Assembly: GCF_020400585.1 (NCBI RefSeq)
Contig: NZ_JAINVF010000014.1
Coordinates: 1 to 64,000 of the forward strand
Reading direction: 5' to 3'
Source of the DNA: Streptomyces sp. NK08204
GTDB lineage: Bacteria; Actinomycetota; Actinomycetes; Streptomycetales; Streptomycetaceae
Length of the DNA stretch: 64,000 bases
Of this stretch, positions 12,223 through 48,264 are shown piece after piece. The position numbers and the translations under genes were made by a program. The notes below the pieces were generated by a model, which worked only from the letters and a program-made list of their open reading frames with translations, was not told the DNA's origin and made no database searches. Position 1 is the first letter of the stretch; the number at the start of each line of letters is the position of its first letter.

Positions 12223-13758
12223 ATGACGGACACCGCCGAGAAGTACGTCGCCGCCATCGACCAGGGCACCACGTCCAGCCGCTGCATCATCTTCGACCAC
12301 GGCGGCGCGATCGTCGCCGTCGACCAGCGCGAGCACCGCCAGATCTTCCCGAAGCCGGGCTGGGTGGAGCACGACGCCACCGAGATCTGGTCCAAGGTGC
12401 AGGCCGTGGTGGCCGGGGCGCTCGCCAAGGCCGGGCTGCGCGCGGACCAGCTGAGTGCCCTCGGCATCACCAACCAGCGGGAGACGACGGTCCTGTGGGA
12501 CCGCGCCACGGGCAAGCCCGTGCACAACGCGATCGTCTGGCAGGACACCCGTACCGCGGCCCTGTGCCACGAACTGGGTGGCACGGACGGCCAGGACCGC
12601 TTCCGCGAGCGGACCGGGTTACCGCTGGCCAGCTACTTCTCCGGGCCCAAGGCGGCCTGGCTGCTGGATCACGTGCCGGGCCTCCGGGAGCGCGCCGAAC
12701 GCGGCGAGATCGCCTTCGGGACCATCGACTCCTGGCTGATCTGGAACCTCACCGGCGGCACCGACGGCGGCCGGCACGTCACCGACGTCACGAACGCCGG
12801 CCGCACCATGCTGATGAACCTCGACACCCTCCAGTGGGACACCTCCATCCTCTCCACGATGAACATCCCCGAGGCGGTCCTGCCCGAAATCAGGTCCTCC
12901 GCCGAGGTGTACGGCCCCGCCGTCGGTCAGCTCGCCGGTGTGCCCGTGGCCTCGGCGCTGGGCGACCAGCAGGCCGCCGTGTTCGGGCAGGCCTGCTACG
13001 ACGTCGGCACCGCGAAGAACACCTACGGCACCGGAAGTTTCCTGCTGCTCAACACCGGCGACCGGCCGGTGCCGTCCAAGAGCGGGCTGCTGACGACGAT
13101 GGGCTACAAGCTCGGCACCGAGGCGCCGGTGTACTGCCTGGAAGGGTCCATAGCGATAACGGGCGCGCTGGTCCAATGGTTCCGCGACCAACTCGGGATC
13201 ATCCGCACCGCCGATGAGATCGAGCCTCTCGCGGCGAGCGTCGAGGACAACGGCGGCGCCTACATCGTGCCCGCCTTCTCCGGTCTGTTCGCGCCCTACT
13301 GGCGTTCCGACGCGCGTGGGGTCGTCACCGGGCTCACCCGCTATGTGACGAAGGCCCATCTGGCGCGCGCGGTGCTGGAAGCCACGAGCTGGCAGACCCG
13401 GGAGGTCGTGGACGCCATGTACCAGGACTCCGGGGTCAGGATCACCACCCTGAAGGTCGACGGCGGCATGACCGGGAACAACCTGCTCATGCAGCACCAG
13501 GCGGACGTCCTCGGCGTCCCCGTGATCCGGCCCCGGGTGTCCGAGACCACCTGCCTGGGCGCCGCCTACGCGGCCGGTCTGGCGACGGGTGTGTGGAACG
13601 ACCTCGACGAGCTGAAGTCGCACTGGCAGAAGGACGCGGAGTGGGCGCCCGCCATGGAGGCGTCCGTGCGCGACCGTGAGTACGGCAACTGGCGCAGGGC
13701 CGTCGGGAAGAGCTTCGGGTGGCTGGCGGAGGGCGACGCTCAGAGCCGCCCGTCGTAA
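12223..13758 (+). CDS. glpK: Glycerol kinase
   Basis: Cytoplasmic FGGY-family kinase, 511 residues, making sn-glycerol-3-phosphate from glycerol and ATP. The N-terminal ATPase motif [23 protein letters not shown], the [10 protein letters not shown]-like segment and the C-terminal [13 protein letters not shown] are all present. Leu133 is encoded by TTA (12619-12621), the only in-frame TTA codon I found in the window. Full translation should therefore need the bldA tRNA, which in Streptomyces accumulates late and ties expression to development. It is downstream of glpF in one operon; no glpD or glpR lies nearby. Confidence 0.96.
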
Positions 13759-13791
13759 GTCGCTTCACGCGCTTTGGCCCTTCCCAGGACC

Positions 13792-13826
13792 ACGGCCCGT
13801 ACCCCGGTCGGCGGGATACGGGCCGT
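13792..13826. terminator. Bidirectional hairpin between glpK and cvnD
   Basis: ACGGCCCGTA (13792-13801) pairs perfectly with TACGGGCCGT (13817-13826) across a 15-base loop. It sits between the convergent ends of glpK and the minus-strand cvnD. Confidence 0.75.
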
Positions 13827-13882
13827 ACGCGCGCACGGACGCGGCGTAGCGGGTCCGCGGGGGGACGGGGTGGGGGTGCCGG

Positions 13883-14461
13883 TCAGACGATGACGGCCCG
13901 GCGGCGGTCGGCCGCGTACTCCATCGCGTGCTGGACGACGCCGATGAGTACTTCCTTGACGGACTCCCGGTCGCGGGCGTCGCACAGCAGGACGGGTACG
14001 TCGGTGTCCAGGTCGAGGGCCTGGCGTACCGCGTCGGCCGGGTACCGGTCGGCCCCCTCGAAGCAGTTGACGCCGACCGTGAACGGTATGGAGCGCCGCT
14101 CGAAGTAGTCGACGGCGGCGAAGCAGTCCTCCAAGCGGCGCGTGTCGGCGAGCACGACGGCACCGAGCGCGCCCTCGGACAGCTCGTCCCACATGAACCA
14201 GAACCGTTGCTGTCCGGGCGTGCCGAACAGGTACAGCACCAGGTCCTCGCGCAGGGTGATGCGCCCGAAGTCCATGGCCACGGTGGTGGTGCGCTTGCCC
14301 TCCACACCACTGGTGTCGTCCACCGGCCGCCCGGCCTCGGTGAGTGACTCCTCGGTGCGCAGCGGCCTGATCTCGCTGACCGCGCCGACGAGAGTCGTCT
14401 TGCCCACGCCGAAGCCACCGGCCACCAGGATCTTGAGGGTGACGGGCTCGACCGGAGGCAT
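13883..14461 (-). CDS. cvnD: CvnD-type conservon small GTPase/ATP-binding protein
   Basis: Ras-like GTP-binding protein of 192 residues, the output G protein of a conservon (CvnA kinase-like, CvnB roadblock, CvnC DUF742, CvnD GTPase) working at the membrane. The P-loop GGFGVGKTT is at 15-23, and the switch II/G3 site reads LFGTPGQQRFWFMWDEL. The start at 14461 (MPPVEPVTLKILVAGG) matches the family; upstream in-frame codons would run into the neighbouring gene. In standard conservons cvnD follows cvnC directly; here a 5-oxoprolinase gene lies between, ending 7 bp before cvnD. All genes are on one strand, so co-transcription is likely. Confidence 0.93.
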   Translation of the reverse strand: MPPVEPVTLKILVAGGFGVGKTTLVGAVSEIRPLRTEESLTEAGRPVDDTSGVEGKRTTTVAMDFGRITLREDLVLYLFGTPGQQRFWFMWDELSEGALGAVVLADTRRLEDCFAAVDYFERRSIPFTVGVNCFEGADRYPADAVRQALDLDTDVPVLLCDARDRESVKEVLIGVVQHAMEYAADRRRAVIV

Positions 14462-14468
14462 CGCTCGC

Positions 14469-17400
14469 TCAGAACGCCCGCAGATCATCGGTCTCTTCTC
14501 CTGCTTGAAGGGGGTCGGGCGACGGTCGGCCGTAGCCGCCGCCACCTGGGGTTTCGATGACGAGTACGTCGTGGGGGCCGACGTCCGCGGAACCGCTCGC
14601 GCCGAGGTCGGTGACCGTGCCGTCGGCTCGCTCCACCCGGTTGGCGCCGAGCGCGCCGGGGCCGCCGCCCGCCATGCCGTACGGCGGGACGCGGCGGTGC
14701 TGGGAGAGCGTGGAGACGGTCATGGGTTCGAGGAAGCGGATGCGGCGCAGAGCGCCGTCTCCGCCGCGCCAGCGTCCGCTTCCGCCGCTGCCCCGCCGGA
14801 CGGTGAACTCCTCCAGCCTGACGGGCAGGCGCCACTCCAGGACTTCCGGGTCGGTGAGCCGGGAGTTGGTCATGTGGGTCTGGACGACGTCGGCGCCCGG
14901 GAAACCGTCACCGGCACCCGATCCGGAGGCGACGGTCTCGTAGTACTGGTGGCGTTCGTTGCCGAAGGTCACGTTGTTCATGGTGCCGGAGCCCTCGGCC
15001 TGGACTCCGAGCGCGGCGTAGAGGGCACCGGTGATGGACTGGGACGTCTCGACGTTGCCCGCGACGACGGCGGCGGGCGGCTCGGGCGCGAGCATGGAGC
15101 CGGGCGGCACGACGATGTCCAGGGGGCGCAGACACCCGTCGTTGAGTGGGATGTCGTCGGCCACCAGGGTGCGGAAGACGTACAGGACGGCCGCGTTGAC
15201 CACGGCGAAGGGGGCGTTGAAGTTGGTGGCGAGCTGTGCCGAGGTGCCCGTGAAGTCGATGGTCGCGCGGCGCTCGGTGCGGTCGACGCGGACGCGGACG
15301 CGGAGGACGGCGCCCGAGTCGGTCTCGTAGGCGTACTCCCCGTCGTCCAGGGCGTCGATGACACGGCGGACCGCTTCCTCCGCGTTGTCCTGGACGTGCC
15401 GCATGTAGGCCTGGACGACATCGAGGCCGAACTCCTCGATCATGCGGCGGACTTCGTCCACGCCCTTCTGGTTGGCGGCGATCTGTGCCCGCAGGTCGGC
15501 GAGGTTGGTGTGCACGTTCCGGGAGGGATGGGGCGCCTCGGCGAGCAGGCGCCTGGTCTCCTCCTCGCGCAGCCGGCCGTTCTGCGCGAGCAGCCAGTTG
15601 TCGAAGAGGACTCCCTCCTCCTCGATGCTGCCGCTGTGGGCGGGCATGGAGCCGGGGGCGATGCCGCCGATCTCGGCGTGATGGCCCCGTGAGGCGACGT
15701 AGAAGAGGATCTCCGGCTCACGTTCCGTGTCGGTTGCGGAGTCGGTGTCGAAGACGGGGGTGATCACGGTGACGTCGGGCAGGTGTGTGCCGCCGTGGTA
15801 CGGGTCGTTGACGGCATAGGTGTCGCCCGGTCGCATCGAGGCGCCGCGGCGGCGGATGACCTCCTTGACGCTGGTGCCCATGGATCCCAGGTGCACGGGG
15901 ATGTGGGGGGCGTTGGCCACCAGGTTTCCGTCCGGATCGAACAGGGCGCAGGAGAAGTCCAGGCGTTCCTTGATGTTGACGGACTGGGCCGTGGACTCCA
16001 GCCGTGCGCCCATCTGTTCGGCGATCGACATGAAGAGGTTGTTGAAGACCTCCAGCAGAACCGGGTCGGCTTCTGTGCCGATGTCGGAACTCTGCGTGAT
16101 CGCCGCGCGTTCCATGACCAGATGCCCGTCCTCGGTCGCCGCGGCCCGCCAGCCGTCGTCGACGACGGTGGTCGCGCCGGCCTCCGCGATGATCGCGGGG
16201 CCGGTGACGGTCTCGCCGGGAGGAAGGTTCTCGCGGCGGTGGAGGGGTACGTCGCGCCAGACGCCGCCGGTGTGGAGGCGGACGGTGCCGGGGGCGGCCG
16301 GGTGGCCTTCGTAAGGGGCGAGGGCGGACAGATCGGGGGGCGCGGTGATGCCGGTGGCTTCGACGGAGAGGGCTTCGACGACGATCGGGCGGTCGAGGGC
16401 GAAGGAGTACGTGGCGCGATGGCGTTCTTCGAAGGCGTGCCTCATCGCGCCGGGCTCGGCCAGCTCCACGGTCAGGGTGGTGTCGGTGCCGTCGTAACGG
16501 AGCTGAGCGCGCCGGGTGACCTCGATGCGGTCCTCCGGCACGTCCTCGGCGAGGAGTTCGGCGCGGGCGGCGCCCTCCAGGTCGTCGGCCGTCTTGAGGA
16601 CGGCCGGCATCGAGGCGGCCCGCAGGGGTGCCTCGACGGACTGTTCGCGCATGGCGGTGGTGTCGGCGAGTCCGATGCCGAGCGCGGACAGGACACCGGC
16701 CATGGGAGGTACGAGGACGGTACGGATGCCGAGCGAGTCGGCGACCCTGCACGCGTGCTGGCCCCCCGCCCCACCGAAGGTGGTGAGGGCGTACCGGGTG
16801 ACGTCGTGGCCCTTCTGGACGGAGATCCGCTTCACGGCGTTGGCGATGTTGGCGACGGCGATCTGCAGGTAGCCCTCGGCCACCTGCTCCGGGGTGCGGT
16901 CGTCGCCGGTCTTCTCCCGGATCTCGCGGGCGAGGGCGGCGAAGCGGTCGCGGACCAGGGCGGTGTCGAGGGGCTGGCCGCCGTCGGGCCCGAACACGCT
17001 GGGGAAGTGGCCGGGCTGGATACGGCCGAGCATCACGTTGGCGTCGGTGACCGTGAGCGGGCCGCCCGCCCGGTAGCAGGCGGGGCCGGGGTCGGCGCCC
17101 GCCGAGTCGGGGCCGACGCGGTACCGGGAGCCGTCGAAGTGCAGGACGGAGCCGCCGCCGGCCGCGACGGTGTGGATGTCCAGCATGGGCGCGCGCAGCC
17201 GGACGCCCGCGATCTGGGTGGTGAAGACCCGCTCGTACTCGCCGGCGAAGTGCGAGACGTCGGTGGAGGTGCCGCCCATGTCGAAACCGATGACGCGCTC
17301 GAAGCCCGCGCGCTGCGACATGCGGGCCATACCGACGATGCCGCCGGCCGGCCCGGAGAGAACGGCGTCCTTGCCGCGGAACTGTCCGGCCTCCGCGAGT

Positions 17401-18107
17401 CCGCCGTTGGACTGCATGAACATCAGGCGCACGCCCTGGAGTTCGTCGGCGACGTGCCGCACGTAGCGGCGCAGCACGGGCGACAGGTAGGCGTCCACGA
17501 CGGCGGTGTCCCCCCGCGGCACCAGCTTCATCAGCGGGCTGACCTCGCTGGACAGCGAGATCTGCGGGAAGCCGGTGCGGGCGGCGAGGTCGCCGATGGC
17601 CCGCTCGTGGGCGGGGTACAGGTGGCTGTGCAGGCAGACGACGGCGACCGCGCGGATACCGTCGTCGTACGCCTGCCGCAGCGGGCCCGCCAGGGCGTCC
17701 AGGTCGGGGGCGCGCAGGACGGTGCCGTCGGCGGCGACGCGTTCGTCGGCCTCGACGACCCGCTCGTAGAGCAGCTCGGGCAGTTCGATGCGGCGGGCGA
17801 AGATCCGGGGCCGGTTCTGGTAGGCGATGCGCAGGGCGTCACCAAAGCCCCGGGTGATCACCAGAAGGGTGCGTTCGCCCTTGCGTTCGAGCAGGGCGTT
17901 GGTGGCGACCGTCGTGCCCATGCGGACGGCGTCGATGGGCTCTTCGGAGCCGTCGAGGAGTTCACGGACGCCGGCGACGGCCGCGTCGGTGTACCGGGCG
18001 GGGTTTTCGGACAGAAGCTTGTGCGTGAGCAGCCGGCCGTCCGGGCGACGCGCGACGATGTCGGTGAAGGTGCCGCCTCGATCGACCCAGAACTGCCAGC
18101 CTGTCAC
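14469..18107 (-). CDS. ATP-dependent 5-oxoprolinase / hydantoinase, fused HyuA-HyuB
   Basis: Single chain of 1212 residues joining the HyuA and HyuB subunits, the layout of eukaryotic-type OPLAH, which opens 5-oxoproline to glutamate with ATP. Hydant_A N-terminal segment: [20 protein letters not shown]. HyuA ATPase region: [14 protein letters not shown], and [16 protein letters not shown]. HyuB begins near residue 690 ([20 protein letters not shown]) and runs to the end. Both halves look intact. Hydantoinase or acetone-carboxylase-like activities are alternatives. It starts 24 bp after cvnC and ends 7 bp before cvnD, so it is embedded in a conservon operon, which is unusual. A second unrelated oxoprolinase (PxpABC) is at 47506-49770. 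Confidence 0.9.
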
Positions 18108-18131
18108 GTCACTACTCCGCTTCCGCGCCGG

Positions 18132-18527
18132 TCACAGTGCCCGGAGGCCGTTGATCACGTCGCGCAGGATACTCTCGTCCGGCAGCTCGGCCGGGGGCAC
18201 CGGCCGTGTCACGTGGACGAGCTCCGCGTGCACGAGGTCGCCGATGAGCACACGGACGACCCCGATCGGCAGATCGAGTTCCGCGGCGAGTTCGGCAACC
18301 GACTGCGGTGCCGTACGACAGAGTCCGACGATCTCCACATGCTCCGGGGACAGTGTCTGGTCCGCCTCCGGATCACCCGTGCCGGGTTCCGTGCCGACCA
18401 CCGCGATCAGGTCGAGGCGGTGCTGGGCCGCGCTCGTGGTGCGGCCACGCGTCATGGCGTACGGACGGACGACCGGTCCGGCCTCGTCGTCGAACCAGTG
18501 GCTTGTTCCCTGACCGTCTCCGCTCAT
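18132..18527 (-). CDS. cvnC: CvnC-type DUF742 protein
   Basis: Small soluble protein of 131 residues with the DUF742 winged-helix-like fold typical of conservons. The family phrases RPYAMTRGRT and SVAELAAELDLPIGVVRVLIGDL are present, and the C-terminus ends in ILRDVINGLRAL. In conservons it bridges the sensor kinase-like CvnA and the GTPase CvnD. It is 9 bp downstream of cvnB and is followed after 24 bp by the 5-oxoprolinase gene instead of cvnD. Confidence 0.93.
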   Translation of the reverse strand: MSGDGQGTSHWFDDEAGPVVRPYAMTRGRTTSAAQHRLDLIAVVGTEPGTGDPEADQTLSPEHVEIVGLCRTAPQSVAELAAELDLPIGVVRVLIGDLVHAELVHVTRPVPPAELPDESILRDVINGLRAL

Positions 18528-18536
18528 GCCATCCCA

Positions 18537-18971
18537 CTACCCGCCCAGGGGCAGACCGGTGCGCGGAGCAGTGCCCAGATGCACACCGACCCGCTTGACC
18601 AGCAGTGTCATCTCGTAGGCGACCTGCCCGACGTCCGAGTCCGCGTCCGAGAGGACGGCGAGGCAACTGCCGTCCCCGGCGGCGGTCACGAACAGGAAGG
18701 CGTCGTCCAGCTCGACCACGGTCTGCCGGACGCTACCCGCGTCGAAGTGACGGCCCACGCCCTTGGCCAGGCTGTGGAAGCCGGACGCGACGGCTGCCAG
18801 ATGCTCGCTGTCCTCCCGGGTCAGATCCTTGGACACTCCCGTGGGCAGACCGTCACCGGAGAGTATGACGGCCTTGCGGATGCTGGCGACCCGGTCGACG
18901 AGGTCGTCGAGGAGCCAGTTCAGCTCTCCCTTGTTCGTCTCCGTGTGGCCGGTGGCCTTCGGTGCGGTCAT
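18537..18971 (-). CDS. cvnB: CvnB-type roadblock/LC7 protein
   Basis: Roadblock/LC7-fold protein, 144 residues, presumed regulator of the CvnD GTPase. The core ELNWLLDDLVDRVASIRKAVILSGDGLP is typical, as is LAVLSDADSDVGQVAYEMTLLVKRVG near the C-terminus. Its start codon overlaps the cvnA stop by four bases (ATGA), so the two are translationally coupled. Confidence 0.94.
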   Translation of the reverse strand: MTAPKATGHTETNKGELNWLLDDLVDRVASIRKAVILSGDGLPTGVSKDLTREDSEHLAAVASGFHSLAKGVGRHFDAGSVRQTVVELDDAFLFVTAAGDGSCLAVLSDADSDVGQVAYEMTLLVKRVGVHLGTAPRTGLPLGG

Positions 18972-21760
18972 CGACCGTCCCCCTTAGTCGTTCCTCGTGC
19001 TGCGCCGTTCTGGGCCCCGTCGCCCGCGGCGTTGTCCTCACGGCCGCGCTGCCAGCCGCGCTGGAGCGAGGCCATCCGGCTGCGGACCTCGGCGGCGTCG
19101 CGGTCGCCGACGGGCTGCGGTCGGCGTTCGGCGCTGCGTTCGATGTCCTGCCTCAGCTGCGGGGCCAGGCTGGCCTGTCGTACGCGCCGGGGCAGCGGGC
19201 TCATGCCCGGCATCGGTTCCCGGGCGGTGCCGTGGGCCGCCGGGGCCTGCTCTCCCGGTCCACCGGTCAGGGCGGCGGGCCGGGGCCGCCTGGGCAGCGC
19301 CGGGTGCCCCGCGGTCTCGTCACCGCCCGGAACCGGCCCGCGCTCCTCGACGCGGTCGGTGTGTCCCGTGACGTCGCGGGAGGCGTCTGTGCTCCGGCGG
19401 CTGGGCAGCGGGGCCAGTGTGCCCCCGCCGGGCTGTTCCTGCGGCTCGCCGAAGTGGGAGCGCTGCTCGGTCACGGGCCTGCCGTGGGAGCTGACCAGCT
19501 TGGGCGTCTGCCGCCGGGGCAGCGGTACGGGCCCGCCGACCACTCCGTTCTGCGGGTCCCCCAGCTGCGAGGGGGCCGGCTGATGACGGTCGCCCGGCTG
19601 GAAGGCACCCGGGTCGTCGGCGCGGGAGCGGGAACGGCGGGGGCGGAAGAGTCCGCCGCGCTCGCTGTCCTGGTCCGTCAGGGCGCCGGGGAAGTCGTTG
19701 AGCGCGTCCAGGCCGACGGGCGCCTCCAGCTCGACCGGTCCGTCCAGCACGGACGTCGGCATCCCGGGCAGCTGCGCCGGTGCCTGCGCGCGGGCGACGG
19801 CGCGGCCCGCCGCCGGTTCGGACTCCTGCGCGGGCCGGTTCCGGTCGAGGCGGAAGCCGGTCCCGTCGGTGTCCGGGACGTCCTCGGTCAGAAGCGTGTC
19901 GGGGATGAAGAGAACGGCGGTGGTCCCGCCGTAGGGGGAGGGCTGGAGGGAGACCCGGACGTTCTGGCGCTGGGCGAGACGGCTGACCACGAAGAGGCCG
20001 AGCCGGTCGGTGTCGGAGAGTTCGAACTCGGGCGTCTCGGCGAGCCGCAGGTTGGCGTCCAGCAGCGCGTCGGCCGTCATGCCGAGGCCCCGGTCGTGGA
20101 TCTCCAGGGTGAAGCCGTTGGCGACTCGCTCGCCGAGGACCTGGACGGCGGTGTGCGGGGGCGAGAAGACCGTGGCGTTCTCCAGGAGTTCGGCCACGAG
20201 GTGGGTGATGTCGGCGACGGCCGGTCCGGTGACGGCGATGCGCGGCAGGCGCCGTACCTCGATGCGCTCGTAGTCCTCGACCTCGGCGACGGCGGCCCGG
20301 ACGACGTCCATCAGCTGCACGGGGCGGCGCCACTGCCGTGACGGTGCGGCGCCGGACAGGATCACCAGCCCCTCGGCGTGCCGGCGCATGCGGGTGGTGA
20401 GGTGGTCCAGGCGGAACAGGTCGGCGAGTTCGTCGGTGTCCTCGGTCCGGCGTTCCATGGTGTCCAGCAGCGTGAGCTGCTTGTGCAACAGCACCTGGCT
20501 GCGGCGGGCGAGGTTGACGAACACCTCGGAGACGCCCGCCCGCAGTTCGGCCTGCTTGACGGCGGCCTCGACGGCGGCGCGCTGCAGGGTGTTGAGGGCC
20601 TGGCCGACCTCGCCGATCTCGCTCTTGTCGTACTCCAGCCGCGGCACCTCGGTCTCCACGTCGACCTGTTCCCCGGCGGACAGGCGGCGCATCACGCTGG
20701 GCAGTCGGACACCGGACGCCTCGTGGGCCTCCGTCCGCAGCTGCCGCAGGTCGCGGATGAGGTCGCGGCCGACGCGGATGGACATGACGATGGAGAACAC
20801 GACGGCGAACAGGCCGAGCAGGCCCGCGATGACCGCTTCCACGATGACGTGCATGGCCAGGGGACGTATGCGGTTCTGGAAGTGGTCGTTCGCCTGGTCG
20901 TCGAAACCGCCGAGTTGACGGAGGGCGGGGCCGGCCGCGGAGTCCCAGCTCTTGGCGGTGATCCCGCGGGGGGTTCCCGGATCGCTGCGGGTGACGGTCT
21001 CTTCGGCTGCGCGCAGTGCCGCCGTGGGGGCGTTCTTCCAGAAGCGTTCGTAGCGTTCGCGCTCCGCGGTGGGCAGCTGCGCAAGGCCGACGGCGTACAG
21101 CGCCGTGCGCTGGGCGGCGAGGTCGGCGATCTCACGGATCTCGTTGCGGGTCAGCGTGCCGACGACCAGGGCGGAGCCGAGCAGCGCGTCCTCGCGGGAG
21201 AGCAGATCGCGGGCGGCGGAGACGTGGACCAGGGCGCGAGCCTGCTTGTCCAGGTCGACGTCGTCGACCTGGTCGAGGGAGCTGAGCAGGGTGTAGCAGG
21301 AGCCGATGAGCCGGTTGTACAGGTCGAAGGCCTGGGCGCGGGTGACCGTGCCCTCTTCGACGCTGCGGCGCAGCGAGTCCAGACCGTCGAACCCGTCCAG
21401 CACGGTGGTGAGACGGTCGCGCCCGTTCCCGTCGAGTCCGTCCTGGCCCTCGGCGTTCTTGCGGACCTCGGCGATCGCCTGGTCGGAGGCCGTGCGGGTG
21501 TGGTTGAGCGTCGAGACGGCGTCGGTGGCCCGCGGGTCGGCGAGGTAGAGCAGCGTCTGGCGGCGTTCCTCCTGCAGGACACGGATCGCGTCCTCCGTCG
21601 GATAGCCGATGTCCTGCCTCTCACCCGTCACATGGAACAGCTGGGCCACTTCACGCCCCGTCAGTACCGTCGCGAAGCCCCAGACAGCGGTCAGGGACAC
21701 CAGCGGCACGAGGAGCAGCGCCACGATCTTCCGGCGGATCGACTTCCCGCGAAAGCGCAT
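18968..21760 (-). CDS. cvnA: CvnA-type sensor histidine-kinase-like membrane protein
   Basis: Membrane sensor of 930 residues that heads the conservon. A membrane segment near 14-35 (IVALLLVPLVSLTAVWGFA) is followed by an extracytoplasmic nitrate-sensor-like (NIT) helical domain and a second membrane segment near 305-330. A HAMP-like linker, a helical dimerisation part (LFRLDHLTTRMRRHAEGL) and an HATPase_c domain follow, with VAELLENATVFSPP near residue 525 and DRGLGM and DRLGLFVVSRLA. The last 280 residues are Pro/Arg/Gln-rich and probably disordered. No response regulator is adjacent; CvnBCD take that role. The signal is unknown; the embedded 5-oxoprolinase hints at a glutamate-related cue, which is inference. 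Confidence 0.93.
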   Translation of the reverse strand: MRFRGKSIRRKIVALLLVPLVSLTAVWGFATVLTGREVAQLFHVTGERQDIGYPTEDAIRVLQEERRQTLLYLADPRATDAVSTLNHTRTASDQAIAEVRKNAEGQDGLDGNGRDRLTTVLDGFDGLDSLRRSVEEGTVTRAQAFDLYNRLIGSCYTLLSSLDQVDDVDLDKQARALVHVSAARDLLSREDALLGSALVVGTLTRNEIREIADLAAQRTALYAVGLAQLPTAERERYERFWKNAPTAALRAAEETVTRSDPGTPRGITAKSWDSAAGPALRQLGGFDDQANDHFQNRIRPLAMHVIVEAVIAGLLGLFAVVFSIVMSIRVGRDLIRDLRQLRTEAHEASGVRLPSVMRRLSAGEQVDVETEVPRLEYDKSEIGEVGQALNTLQRAAVEAAVKQAELRAGVSEVFVNLARRSQVLLHKQLTLLDTMERRTEDTDELADLFRLDHLTTRMRRHAEGLVILSGAAPSRQWRRPVQLMDVVRAAVAEVEDYERIEVRRLPRIAVTGPAVADITHLVAELLENATVFSPPHTAVQVLGERVANGFTLEIHDRGLGMTADALLDANLRLAETPEFELSDTDRLGLFVVSRLAQRQNVRVSLQPSPYGGTTAVLFIPDTLLTEDVPDTDGTGFRLDRNRPAQESEPAAGRAVARAQAPAQLPGMPTSVLDGPVELEAPVGLDALNDFPGALTDQDSERGGLFRPRRSRSRADDPGAFQPGDRHQPAPSQLGDPQNGVVGGPVPLPRRQTPKLVSSHGRPVTEQRSHFGEPQEQPGGGTLAPLPSRRSTDASRDVTGHTDRVEERGPVPGGDETAGHPALPRRPRPAALTGGPGEQAPAAHGTAREPMPGMSPLPRRVRQASLAPQLRQDIERSAERRPQPVGDRDAAEVRSRMASLQRGWQRGREDNAAGDGAQNGAARGTTKGDGR

Positions 21761-22177
21761 GGCCTCCCCCAGCTCGGCCCCCGCCGACCGGGGGCACGTA
21801 TATCCGTCAACAAACGGCGCGAGCCTACTACCGCATCACAGGTAACTCGAAGACATATTCGGAGTGTGAAATTCCGTACTGGCAGCGGGAGATGGCGAGT
21901 TGTCCGGGCATTGCGGGAGATTGTCCCCGCGATTCGACCGCCCGCGACGGGACCGGCCGCAGCGGCCCGGACAGGTGGTTGGCTGGAAATTTTCGCCGAG
22001 GGGAATCTTCGCGGGACCCCGTTCGTCCTTCTCTACAGGAAATGGGGGCGGAATCGGACACAGGAGCCGCATCCCGCATCTCGGCGGCGTAAAGCAGCGC
22101 AAGCCGGGCAGCCACTGGGGAGTCGGTGTCTTCGGGTGCCGGGGGTGAGCGGTCTGCCGGCGGTGGGGAGTGACACG
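21761..22177. other. 417-bp divergent intergenic region between cvnA and the 22178 gene
   Basis: It holds the promoters of the minus-strand conservon operon and of the plus-strand membrane protein. The part from about 21795 to 21880 is AT-richer than its surroundings, as expected for a promoter, but no clear -35/-10 pair was assigned. No gene is supported. Confidence 0.45.
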
Positions 22178-22714
22178 GTGATGGGCACGGCGGAGCGGCG
22201 CGAGGCGCCGGAGGAGAACGTGGCGGATCGCTGGGCGATGCGGCGGGGCCGAGGGGCGCTGGATCGCGACATTCCGGCGCGGGAGCACATCCGGGGGTCC
22301 AACGAGCGTCAACGGCAGGCGCGAAACCGGCCGTTGTGGGTCGATGAGCCCGCGCGCCGACGCCGGATGCCCGATCCGGTGCGTACGGCCGCGGTGCGGG
22401 CGGTACTGATCACCTCGGTGACGCTGATCCAGGCGATGATCGCGTTCCTGTGCACCATGGCCGGGTCCTGGCTGGCCTTCCCGATGGTGATCGGCAGCGT
22501 GGTGAGCACGGTGGTGGCCACCTGGGCCGTGGTCGACGTATGGGTGACCCGCCAGGTGTGGAACCAGCGGTACGGGGTCGTCTCCGAGCCGAGCAGCACG
22601 GCCCGGGCGCTGCGCCGGGAGCGCCGCGCCCGTCGGCGCGAGGAGCGGTCCGCCAGGCGGGAGCAGGAGCGCATACGCCGACGGGGCGGCGCCGGGCGGC
22701 TGTCGCACCCCTGA
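22178..22714 (+). CDS. Small membrane protein of unknown function, 178 aa
   Basis: Not recognised. The N-terminal 65 residues are charged. Two hydrophobic segments follow (about 70-92 and 95-115: AVLITSVTLIQAMIAFLCTM and LAFPMVIGSVVSTVVATWA). The C-terminal tail of about 50 residues is extremely Arg/Glu-rich (ALRRERRARRREERSARR) and probably helical and cytoplasmic. GTG 22178 is preferred because GGGGAG lies 7 bp upstream; an ATG follows immediately at 22181. The gene stands alone, divergent from the conservon and convergent with the ferredoxin-reductase gene. Confidence 0.72.
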   Translation: MMGTAERREAPEENVADRWAMRRGRGALDRDIPAREHIRGSNERQRQARNRPLWVDEPARRRRMPDPVRTAAVRAVLITSVTLIQAMIAFLCTMAGSWLAFPMVIGSVVSTVVATWAVVDVWVTRQVWNQRYGVVSEPSSTARALRRERRARRREERSARREQERIRRRGGAGRLSHP

Positions 22715-47505: not shown

Positions 47506-48264
47506 ATGACCGCGATCGATCTGAACGCCGACCTCGGCGAGGGTTTCGGCCGCTGGCGGCTGACCGACGACGAACAGCTGCTGTCCGTCGTCACCAGCGC
47601 CAACGTGGCCTGCGGATTCCACGCCGGGGACGCGGTCACCATGCGCCGGGTCTGCGAACTGGCCGCCGCGCGCGGAGTGGCGATCGGCGCGCAGGTCTCC
47701 TACCGGGACGTGGCAGGATTCGGGCGGCGCGCCATGGATGTGCCGCCCGCCGAGCTGACGGCCGAGGTCGCCTACCAGATCGGCGCACTGGAGGTGTTCG
47801 CGCGGGCCGCGGGCGCACGCGTGGCGTACGTCAAGCCGCACGGCGCGCTGTACAACCGGGTCGTGCACGACGGGGAGCAGGCCGCCGCCGTCGTGGACGG
47901 CGTGCTCCTGGCGGACGCCTCGCTGCCGGTGCTGGGGCTGCCCGGGTCGCAGCTGCTGGAGCTGGCCGCGAAGGCGGGCCTGTCAGCCGTCACGGAGGCG
48001 TTCGCGGACCGCGCGTACACCGACGAGGGCACCCTGGTGCCACGCGGCCGGGAGGGCGCCGTGGTGACCGACCCCGACGCGGTCGTGGAGCGCTCGGTGA
48101 GCCTCGCACGCCACGGCGAGGTGACCACGCACTCCGGCGCGCGGGTCCAGGTGCGCGCCCGCTCGCTGTGCCTGCACGGCGACACGCCCGGCGCGGTGGA
48201 ACTGGCCCGCCGGGTGCGCGAGAAGCTGGCGGCGGCCGGTGTGACAGTGGAGGCCTTCGCGTGA
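47506..48264 (+). CDS. pxpA: 5-oxoprolinase subunit A (LamB/YcsF family)
   Basis: Soluble subunit, 252 residues, of the ATP-dependent PxpABC 5-oxoprolinase. The hallmark N-terminus IDLNADLGEGFGRW is present, followed by VTSANVACGFHAGD, VKPHGALYN and the C-terminal CLHGDTPGAVELARRVR. ATG 47506 follows GAAGGACATC. Together with PxpB and PxpC it cleaves 5-oxoproline, a damage product of glutamine and glutathione-like compounds. Its stop overlaps the pxpB start (GTGA). Confidence 0.95.
   Translation: MTAIDLNADLGEGFGRWRLTDDEQLLSVVTSANVACGFHAGDAVTMRRVCELAAARGVAIGAQVSYRDVAGFGRRAMDVPPAELTAEVAYQIGALEVFARAAGARVAYVKPHGALYNRVVHDGEQAAAVVDGVLLADASLPVLGLPGSQLLELAAKAGLSAVTEAFADRAYTDEGTLVPRGREGAVVTDPDAVVERSVSLARHGEVTTHSGARVQVRARSLCLHGDTPGAVELARRVREKLAAAGVTVEAFA

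Follow-up and report, generated by a model that had tools for sequence, protein, structure and literature searches.

Does an enzyme gene that lies in the middle of a signalling gene cluster take part in the signalling, or is it merely carried there? The question is raised by a locus of Streptomyces sp. NK08204 in a stretch of 64,000 nucleotides (positions 1 to 64,000 of contig NZ_JAINVF010000014.1; hereafter the 64-kb window), where the minus strand carries, in a row, cvnA, cvnB, cvnC, a fused HyuA-HyuB gene that we call oxo, and cvnD. The genes cvnA to cvnD form conservons, which are actinobacterial G protein systems (AGPS) (PMC13343842, PMC8510531) with poorly understood inputs and outputs (PMC13343842). 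Based on the comparative analysis presented here, we consider it likely that oxo, a functional enzyme gene, was inserted long ago at a junction that tolerates additions, and that the enzyme is a metabolic passenger rather than a core component of the signalling module.

Distribution and descent of the embedded gene

We compared 199 Streptomyces genomes, including the genome of the window (numbered G for genomes and L for loci). The orthologous conservon was recognized from its best matches to the genes of the window, and mostly also by the neighbouring glpK gene. The cvnC/cvnD junction could be classified in 166 genomes; in the other 33 it was at a contig end, was not fetched or had no usable cvnC and cvnD. 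The comparison with other Streptomyces, which the first-pass annotation of this DNA had proposed, identified embedded oxo genes in 59 of the classified genomes, among them S. cellostaticus, S. antibioticus (including strain DSM 40234), S. naganishii and S. malachitofuscus. This count includes G196, with oxo in two frames, as well as G192 and G002, in which a stop was flagged inside the match. The recurrence in 59 genomes rules out chance or an assembly artefact as the cause of the arrangement. Another 69 junctions display a 20-bp overlap of cvnC and cvnD, 5 contain relics of oxo and 33 are of other types, 23 of which have a derived cvnD start (ATGATC or ATGACC, here called a footprint) and 10 of which do not. 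The spacing around the embedded gene is highly uniform, with a cvnC-oxo gap of exactly 24 bp in 42 of the 59 genomes and an oxo-cvnD overlap of exactly 20 bp in 53.

The initial claim that cvnC and cvnD are normally adjacent in conservons agrees with the 69 overlapping orthologous junctions and with the same genome, where the two genes are separated in the window and adjacent at 7 of the 8 other DUF742 loci. A conservon paralogue in this genome (L008, contig C19, 96564-99911) has matches to cvnB and cvnC, with no cvnD match within 1.5 kb. Matches to oxo at E<=0.001 were obtained in 149 of the 199 genomes; 136 were counted as orthologous and 13 weak or distant matches were left out. Outside Streptomyces, no conservon gene was found within 1.5 kb on either side of oxo at any of the 20 same-family loci inspected, out of 42 genomes with a match.

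A tree based on CvnB, CvnC, CvnD and GlpK (FastTree, rooted on L145; support values are FastTree or SH (Shimodaira-Hasegawa)-type throughout) placed the 59 embedded, 23 footprint and 5 relic junctions in one clade, with a support of 0.919, and no ancestral-type junction was located inside this derived clade of 87. In most of the outer lineages the ancestral state is preserved, with a cvnC end (..NGLRAL*) that overlaps the cvnD start, ATGGTCTTCGGGCGC or close variants thereof. In the derived clade, the cvnC end and the cvnD start exist separately, and the oxo frame in the window and in most embedded copies ends in ..LRAF* or similar, reading on across the cvnD leader as far as the place of the former cvnC stop. 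The first-pass annotation had suggested a recently inserted gene. The insertion is supported by these data, but a recent date is ruled out, as the arrangement is distributed over a clade that makes up 87 of the 166 classified genomes.

In the scenario that we propose, a conservon with the 20-bp cvnC/cvnD overlap in a Streptomyces ancestor would have received the fused HyuA-HyuB gene at the overlap. Both gene ends would have survived, so that the 20-bp content is now doubled, as a cvnC tail and as a cvnD start, and the enzyme frame would mostly stop where cvnC formerly ended relative to cvnD.

Loss of oxo appears to have occurred on repeated occasions: given one insertion, a Dollo count yields 16 losses, or 13 after collapsing branches below 0.9. 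Between cvnC and cvnD, fragments of the gene were detected by tblastn in 5 of the 166 genomes (G197, G124, G093, G163 and, weakly, G011, with 44% over 57 residues), and visual inspection suggested that bits of both oxo ends have been kept in G091 and G146. A motif from the 5' end of oxo was observed in 4 of the 5 relics and 4 of the 23 footprint junctions, as compared to none of the 69 ancestral junctions, although this motif was chosen after the relics had been inspected and does not fit the intact copies (GGCTGG instead of GGCCGG), so that its count of 0 in the 59 embedded genomes is uninformative.

To trace the source of the gene, a tree was inferred for oxo and its homologues, excluding identical repeats and rows with a stop or with a best match under approximately 1100 residues. 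The 77 distinct embedded sequences and the standalone copy L067 (genome G103) form one group, with a support of 0.999, which adjoins homologues from other genera of the Streptomycetaceae and a few standalone Streptomyces copies. A common standalone type, located upstream of the same conservon at a distance of approximately 9-40 kb in many other Streptomyces, was also considered as the source and was ruled out, since it represents a separate lineage in the oxo tree. In L101 (G196) and G310, oxo is divided into two reading frames near residue 600, which may reflect a genuine split, but also a frameshift or an error in sequencing.

Gene layout, cvnD start and transcription

The cvnA gene (18968..21760, minus strand like the other four genes) encodes a sensor-kinase-like protein with a NIT sensor domain (PF08376, E=1e-41), a HATPase_c domain (PF02518, E=2.9e-8) and four LPxR motifs within residues 747-856 of 930. 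It is followed by cvnB (18537..18971), coding for a roadblock/LC7 protein (Robl_LC7, PF03259, E=2.7e-26), and cvnC (18132..18527), which encodes a DUF742 protein (PF05331, E=1.1e-38) with the C-terminus ..GLRAL*. The oxo gene (14469..18107) codes for 1212 amino acids with the domains Hydant_A_N, Hydantoinase_A and Hydantoinase_B, and cvnD (13883..14488) for a small Ras-like GTPase of 201 amino acids (PF03029, ATP_bind_1, E=3.4e-35 for a shorter form of the protein) with the motifs G1 (GGFGVGKT), G4 (NCFE) and G5 (DAR). The coordinates agree with those aspects of the first-pass annotation that concern the 4-bp overlap of cvnA and cvnB, the 9-bp gap between cvnB and cvnC (18528-18536) and the 24-bp gap between cvnC and oxo (18108..18131), the latter being too short for a whole promoter; the coordinates and Pfam domains likewise agree with a HyuA-HyuB fusion of 1212 residues between cvnC and cvnD.

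The locus contains the histidine-kinase-like, roadblock, DUF742 and small GTPase genes that define a conservon, and the motifs LPxR in CvnA and G1, G4 (NxFD) and G5 (DAR) in CvnD are present, with E for D in G4. The four core genes, their order, strand and domains are the same as in other conservons, as are the LPxR and G-motifs described in PMC4316618, but a 3.6-kb enzyme gene is located between cvnC and cvnD. We classify the locus as a variant of the conservon, as it has all four genes and as cvnC and cvnD overlap at 69 of the 166 orthologous loci.

The 7-bp gap between oxo and cvnD reported initially turned out to be a product of the choice of start codon. At the position of the ATG proposed at that time (14461), the codon is AAG in 75 of the 87 derived-clade junctions, window included, and ATG in only 2, which rules out this start. 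At the position equivalent to 14488, all 87 junctions have an ATG, each preceded by a Shine-Dalgarno (SD)-like motif, which in the window is AGGAG (14498..14502), inside the oxo reading frame. Because of this conservation, cvnD most likely spans 13883-14488 and begins inside oxo, with an overlap of 20 bp (14469..14488) that equals the ancestral cvnC/cvnD overlap in length.

A scan of positions 13700-22400 for sigma-70-type consensus sequences, which did not cover other Streptomyces promoter types, identified no promoter, and the single terminator-like site was located upstream of cvnA. No promoter- or terminator-like site was thus found between cvnC and oxo or between oxo and cvnD, the places where such sites would have contradicted the shared transcript suggested initially. 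The genes cvnA to cvnD are probably transcribed as one unit, which is plausible because of the 24-bp gap, the 20-bp overlap and the lack of such sites in between. In that case, the enzyme would be made from the conservon mRNA and perform its own chemistry. The cvnD gene would retain its own SD site, and ribosomes that finish oxo may also reach cvnD, as they formerly may have done from cvnC.

On the plus strand, glpK (12223..13758) is the convergent neighbour and serves as the marker of the locus in the relatives. Divergent from cvnA is a gene with a sequence resembling that of small membrane proteins (22181..22714). Similar open reading frames with an LWV(E/D) stretch were seen by eye at the same position in several ancestral and derived loci, such as L153 and L154, and the gene may be a partner of the conservon.

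Integrity and identity of the enzyme

The median ratio of nonsynonymous to synonymous substitution rates (dN/dS) for oxo was 0.143 (378 pairs among 28 embedded copies, taken as the first by locus number and not as a random draw), as compared to 0.096 for cvnB, 0.169 for cvnC and 0.130 for cvnD. The embedded gene is thus under purifying selection like its neighbours. The motifs DxGGTxTD, DxGGT, GxxPGP and THxPD of the ATP-dependent lactamases (5-oxoprolinase, N-methylhydantoinase and caprolactamase), including the ATP-site and His-x-x-Asp metal-ligand motifs with the roles described in PMC8453981, are found in the window protein as DRGGTFTD at residue 9, DMGGT at 276, GADPGP at 337 (ATP site) and THLPD at 774. 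Among 77 embedded copies, DRGGTFTD and GADPGP were retained in 76, and DMGGT and THLPD in all; the first ATP motif was scored within the first 40 residues only, as the pattern can also match the second site. With its HyuA and HyuB domains and the motifs for ATP and metal binding, the protein belongs to the hydantoinase-oxoprolinase family of ATP-dependent lactamases. It differs from other members in the location of its gene and, in most copies, in a C-terminal tail that is translated from cvnD leader sequence (..DDLRAF* in the window). Among proteins of solved structure, an N-methylhydantoinase (7hk5) came closest, with a match over the full length and E=1e-141.

The substrate is most likely 5-oxoproline. 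This assignment is favoured because of the gene context, with pxp and probable pcp neighbours, and the complementarity with PxpA. In G103 (L175/L067), a run of pxpA, probable pxpB, pxpC and oxo is located on one strand, near a gene read by eye as pcp, presumably coding for pyroglutamyl peptidase; two kinds of 5-oxoprolinase would thus occur side by side in this genome. A pxpC match was identified in the fetched flanks, some of them short, of 24 of 50 loci (L070-L120 without L101, comprising 48 orthologues that stand alone and 2 distant paralogues). Of the 199 genomes, 25 lack PxpA, and an orthologous oxo is present in 22 of these, as compared to 114 of the 174 genomes with PxpA (Fisher one-sided p=0.016, uncorrected for kinship). 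Two of the three genomes that lack both have a completeness of 78-81%. The window itself contains pxpA (LamB_YcsF, 47515..48228, plus strand; PF03746, E=2.3e-99) approximately 29 kb from oxo; PxpA is a subunit of the other prokaryotic 5-oxoprolinase. The embedded enzyme is probably selected for its own chemistry and partly redundant with PxpABC.

Passenger or signalling partner

Gaps between the conservon genes, counted per classified genome and not per event, were concentrated at the cvnC/cvnD junction. Gaps of at least 100 bp were present in 0 of 156 cvnA/cvnB junctions, 4 of 165 cvnB/cvnC junctions (199 bp at most) and 80 of 166 cvnC/cvnD junctions. No gaps of at least 200 bp were seen at the first two, and 67 of the 166 cvnC/cvnD gaps were at least 1 kb. 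These comprise the 59 that contain oxo by descent and 8 other cases; G043, which has no cvnB match and a cvnC-cvnD gap of 1158 bp, was left out of the list of inserts as its conservon looks degenerate. Five genomes (loci L060, L122, L137, L172 and L173) have a set on the opposite strand that separates cvnC from oxo and/or cvnD. The set codes for IclR, BKACE, 3-hydroxyacyl-CoA-dehydrogenase-like and thioesterase-like proteins (G128, G177, G011 and G122; reduced in G022, and at locus L173), and we read it as carnitine-type catabolism. Genes for MASE1, SpoIIE, alpha/beta-hydrolase and TetR proteins are located between cvnC and cvnD in G064, G137 and G194, and the hydrolase gene alone in G175 (L342, L346 and L348, and L326 for the hydrolase alone), all in genomes outside the oxo clade. 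Finally, TauE and GntR genes are located there in G086. Counting each gene set once, there have been at least four insertions at this junction.

Several results weigh against the interpretation of oxo as a passenger enzyme acquired once and lost repeatedly. The 5' motif is absent from 19 of the 23 footprint junctions, so that most footprint losses are deduced from the tree alone. Matches to a 5-oxoprolinase-specific family model were not obtained, and the curated NCBIfam equivalogs (caprolactamase and acetophenone carboxylase) scored far below their cut-offs. Neither PxpA nor oxo is present in G136, a genome of the derived clade. Moreover, the standalone L067 clusters with the embedded L068 and L069 at 98%, and in an approximately unbiased (AU) test, based on 48 hand-picked rows of the 200 in the oxo tree, a group of embedded copies alone yielded p=0.076. 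One insertion followed by an escape of L067, or two insertions, are possible explanations. The cluster of these three copies suggests that related oxoprolinase genes were inserted independently at least twice, L068/L069 being separate from the rest, as do the oxo stops at L068/L069, which precede the cvnD ATG by 180 and 102 bp and give a different C-terminus; this would be compatible with a passenger enzyme. However, L068/L069 branch off first in the derived conservon clade (2 versus 85 junctions), as expected from one insertion, their cvnC-oxo spacing of 29 bp is similar to the usual 24 bp, and the AU test did not reject the embedded copies as one group. We infer a single insertion and regard several as rather unlikely. 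Alternatively, a neutral insertion could be expressed independently, if a promoter that has escaped notice, within cvnC or ahead of oxo, drove oxo and cvnD in place of the cvnA promoter. The five genomes with separating genes on the opposite strand are consistent with this, as cvnD is there probably expressed apart from cvnABC, but the 24-bp gap in 42 of the 59 embedded genomes and the lack of a sigma-70-like site in the window operon, within the limits of the scan, argue for a shared transcript and make independent expression unlikely.

According to another initial proposal, G-protein signalling could be coupled to 5-oxoproline/glutamate metabolism. The enzyme would then act like CvnE or CvnF, feeding 5-oxoproline, glutamate or ATP status into CvnABCD, or be controlled by CvnD. 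The conserved order and spacing in many members of the clade fit such a role, and so does the presence of a fifth gene in other conservons, where CvnF8 acts on CvnA8 (PMC13343842). Yet CvnE, a P450, and CvnF, a GAF protein, are encoded after cvnD, overwhelmingly together with a CvnA that lacks a sensory domain (PMC8510531, PMC13343842). Although oxo resembles them as a fifth gene tied to a conservon, it belongs to another protein family, is located before cvnD and accompanies a CvnA that retains its own NIT domain. The mycobacterial mfp conservon also has an extra associated gene, mfpA, the product of which binds the GTPase, but this gene follows the conservon and its product is unrelated to oxo (PMC4316618). 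We found no literature that pairs a conservon with an oxoprolinase or hydantoinase, in a search with limited coverage of subscription papers, and a gene between cvnC and cvnD is not described in the accessible portions of PMC8510531, PMC13343842, PMC3123327, PMC2374992, PMC8453981 and PMC4316618. The 13 to 16 losses deduced for oxo with the conservon intact, the opposite-strand carnitine-type genes and the unrelated inserts at the same junction all argue against coupling, which we consider distinctly unlikely. Since oxo seems often to have been lost and the same position is taken by other genes elsewhere, CvnABCD signalling is unlikely to require the enzyme, and a lineage-specific role is possible; the comparisons point to the absence of a signalling role. 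It is even less probable that the cvnC/cvnD junction is a natural cargo slot, in which inserted genes come under the control of the conservon and set the amount of the CvnD GTPase via translational coupling from cvnC to the cargo. If this were true, a single G-protein switch would have inputs or outputs that differ between lineages, in the form of the oxoprolinase, the carnitine-type cluster and the MASE1/SpoIIE set.

The preferred reading, a metabolic passenger in a tolerant junction, serves as a caution that gene order alone is no proof of functional coupling. It also provides a natural comparison of one conservon with the enzyme, without the enzyme, with scars only and with other genes instead. 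This makes it possible to ask whether cvnD must be translated together with cvnC, and whether the presence of a metabolic gene in a signalling operon reflects a coupling to the signalling or mere carriage.

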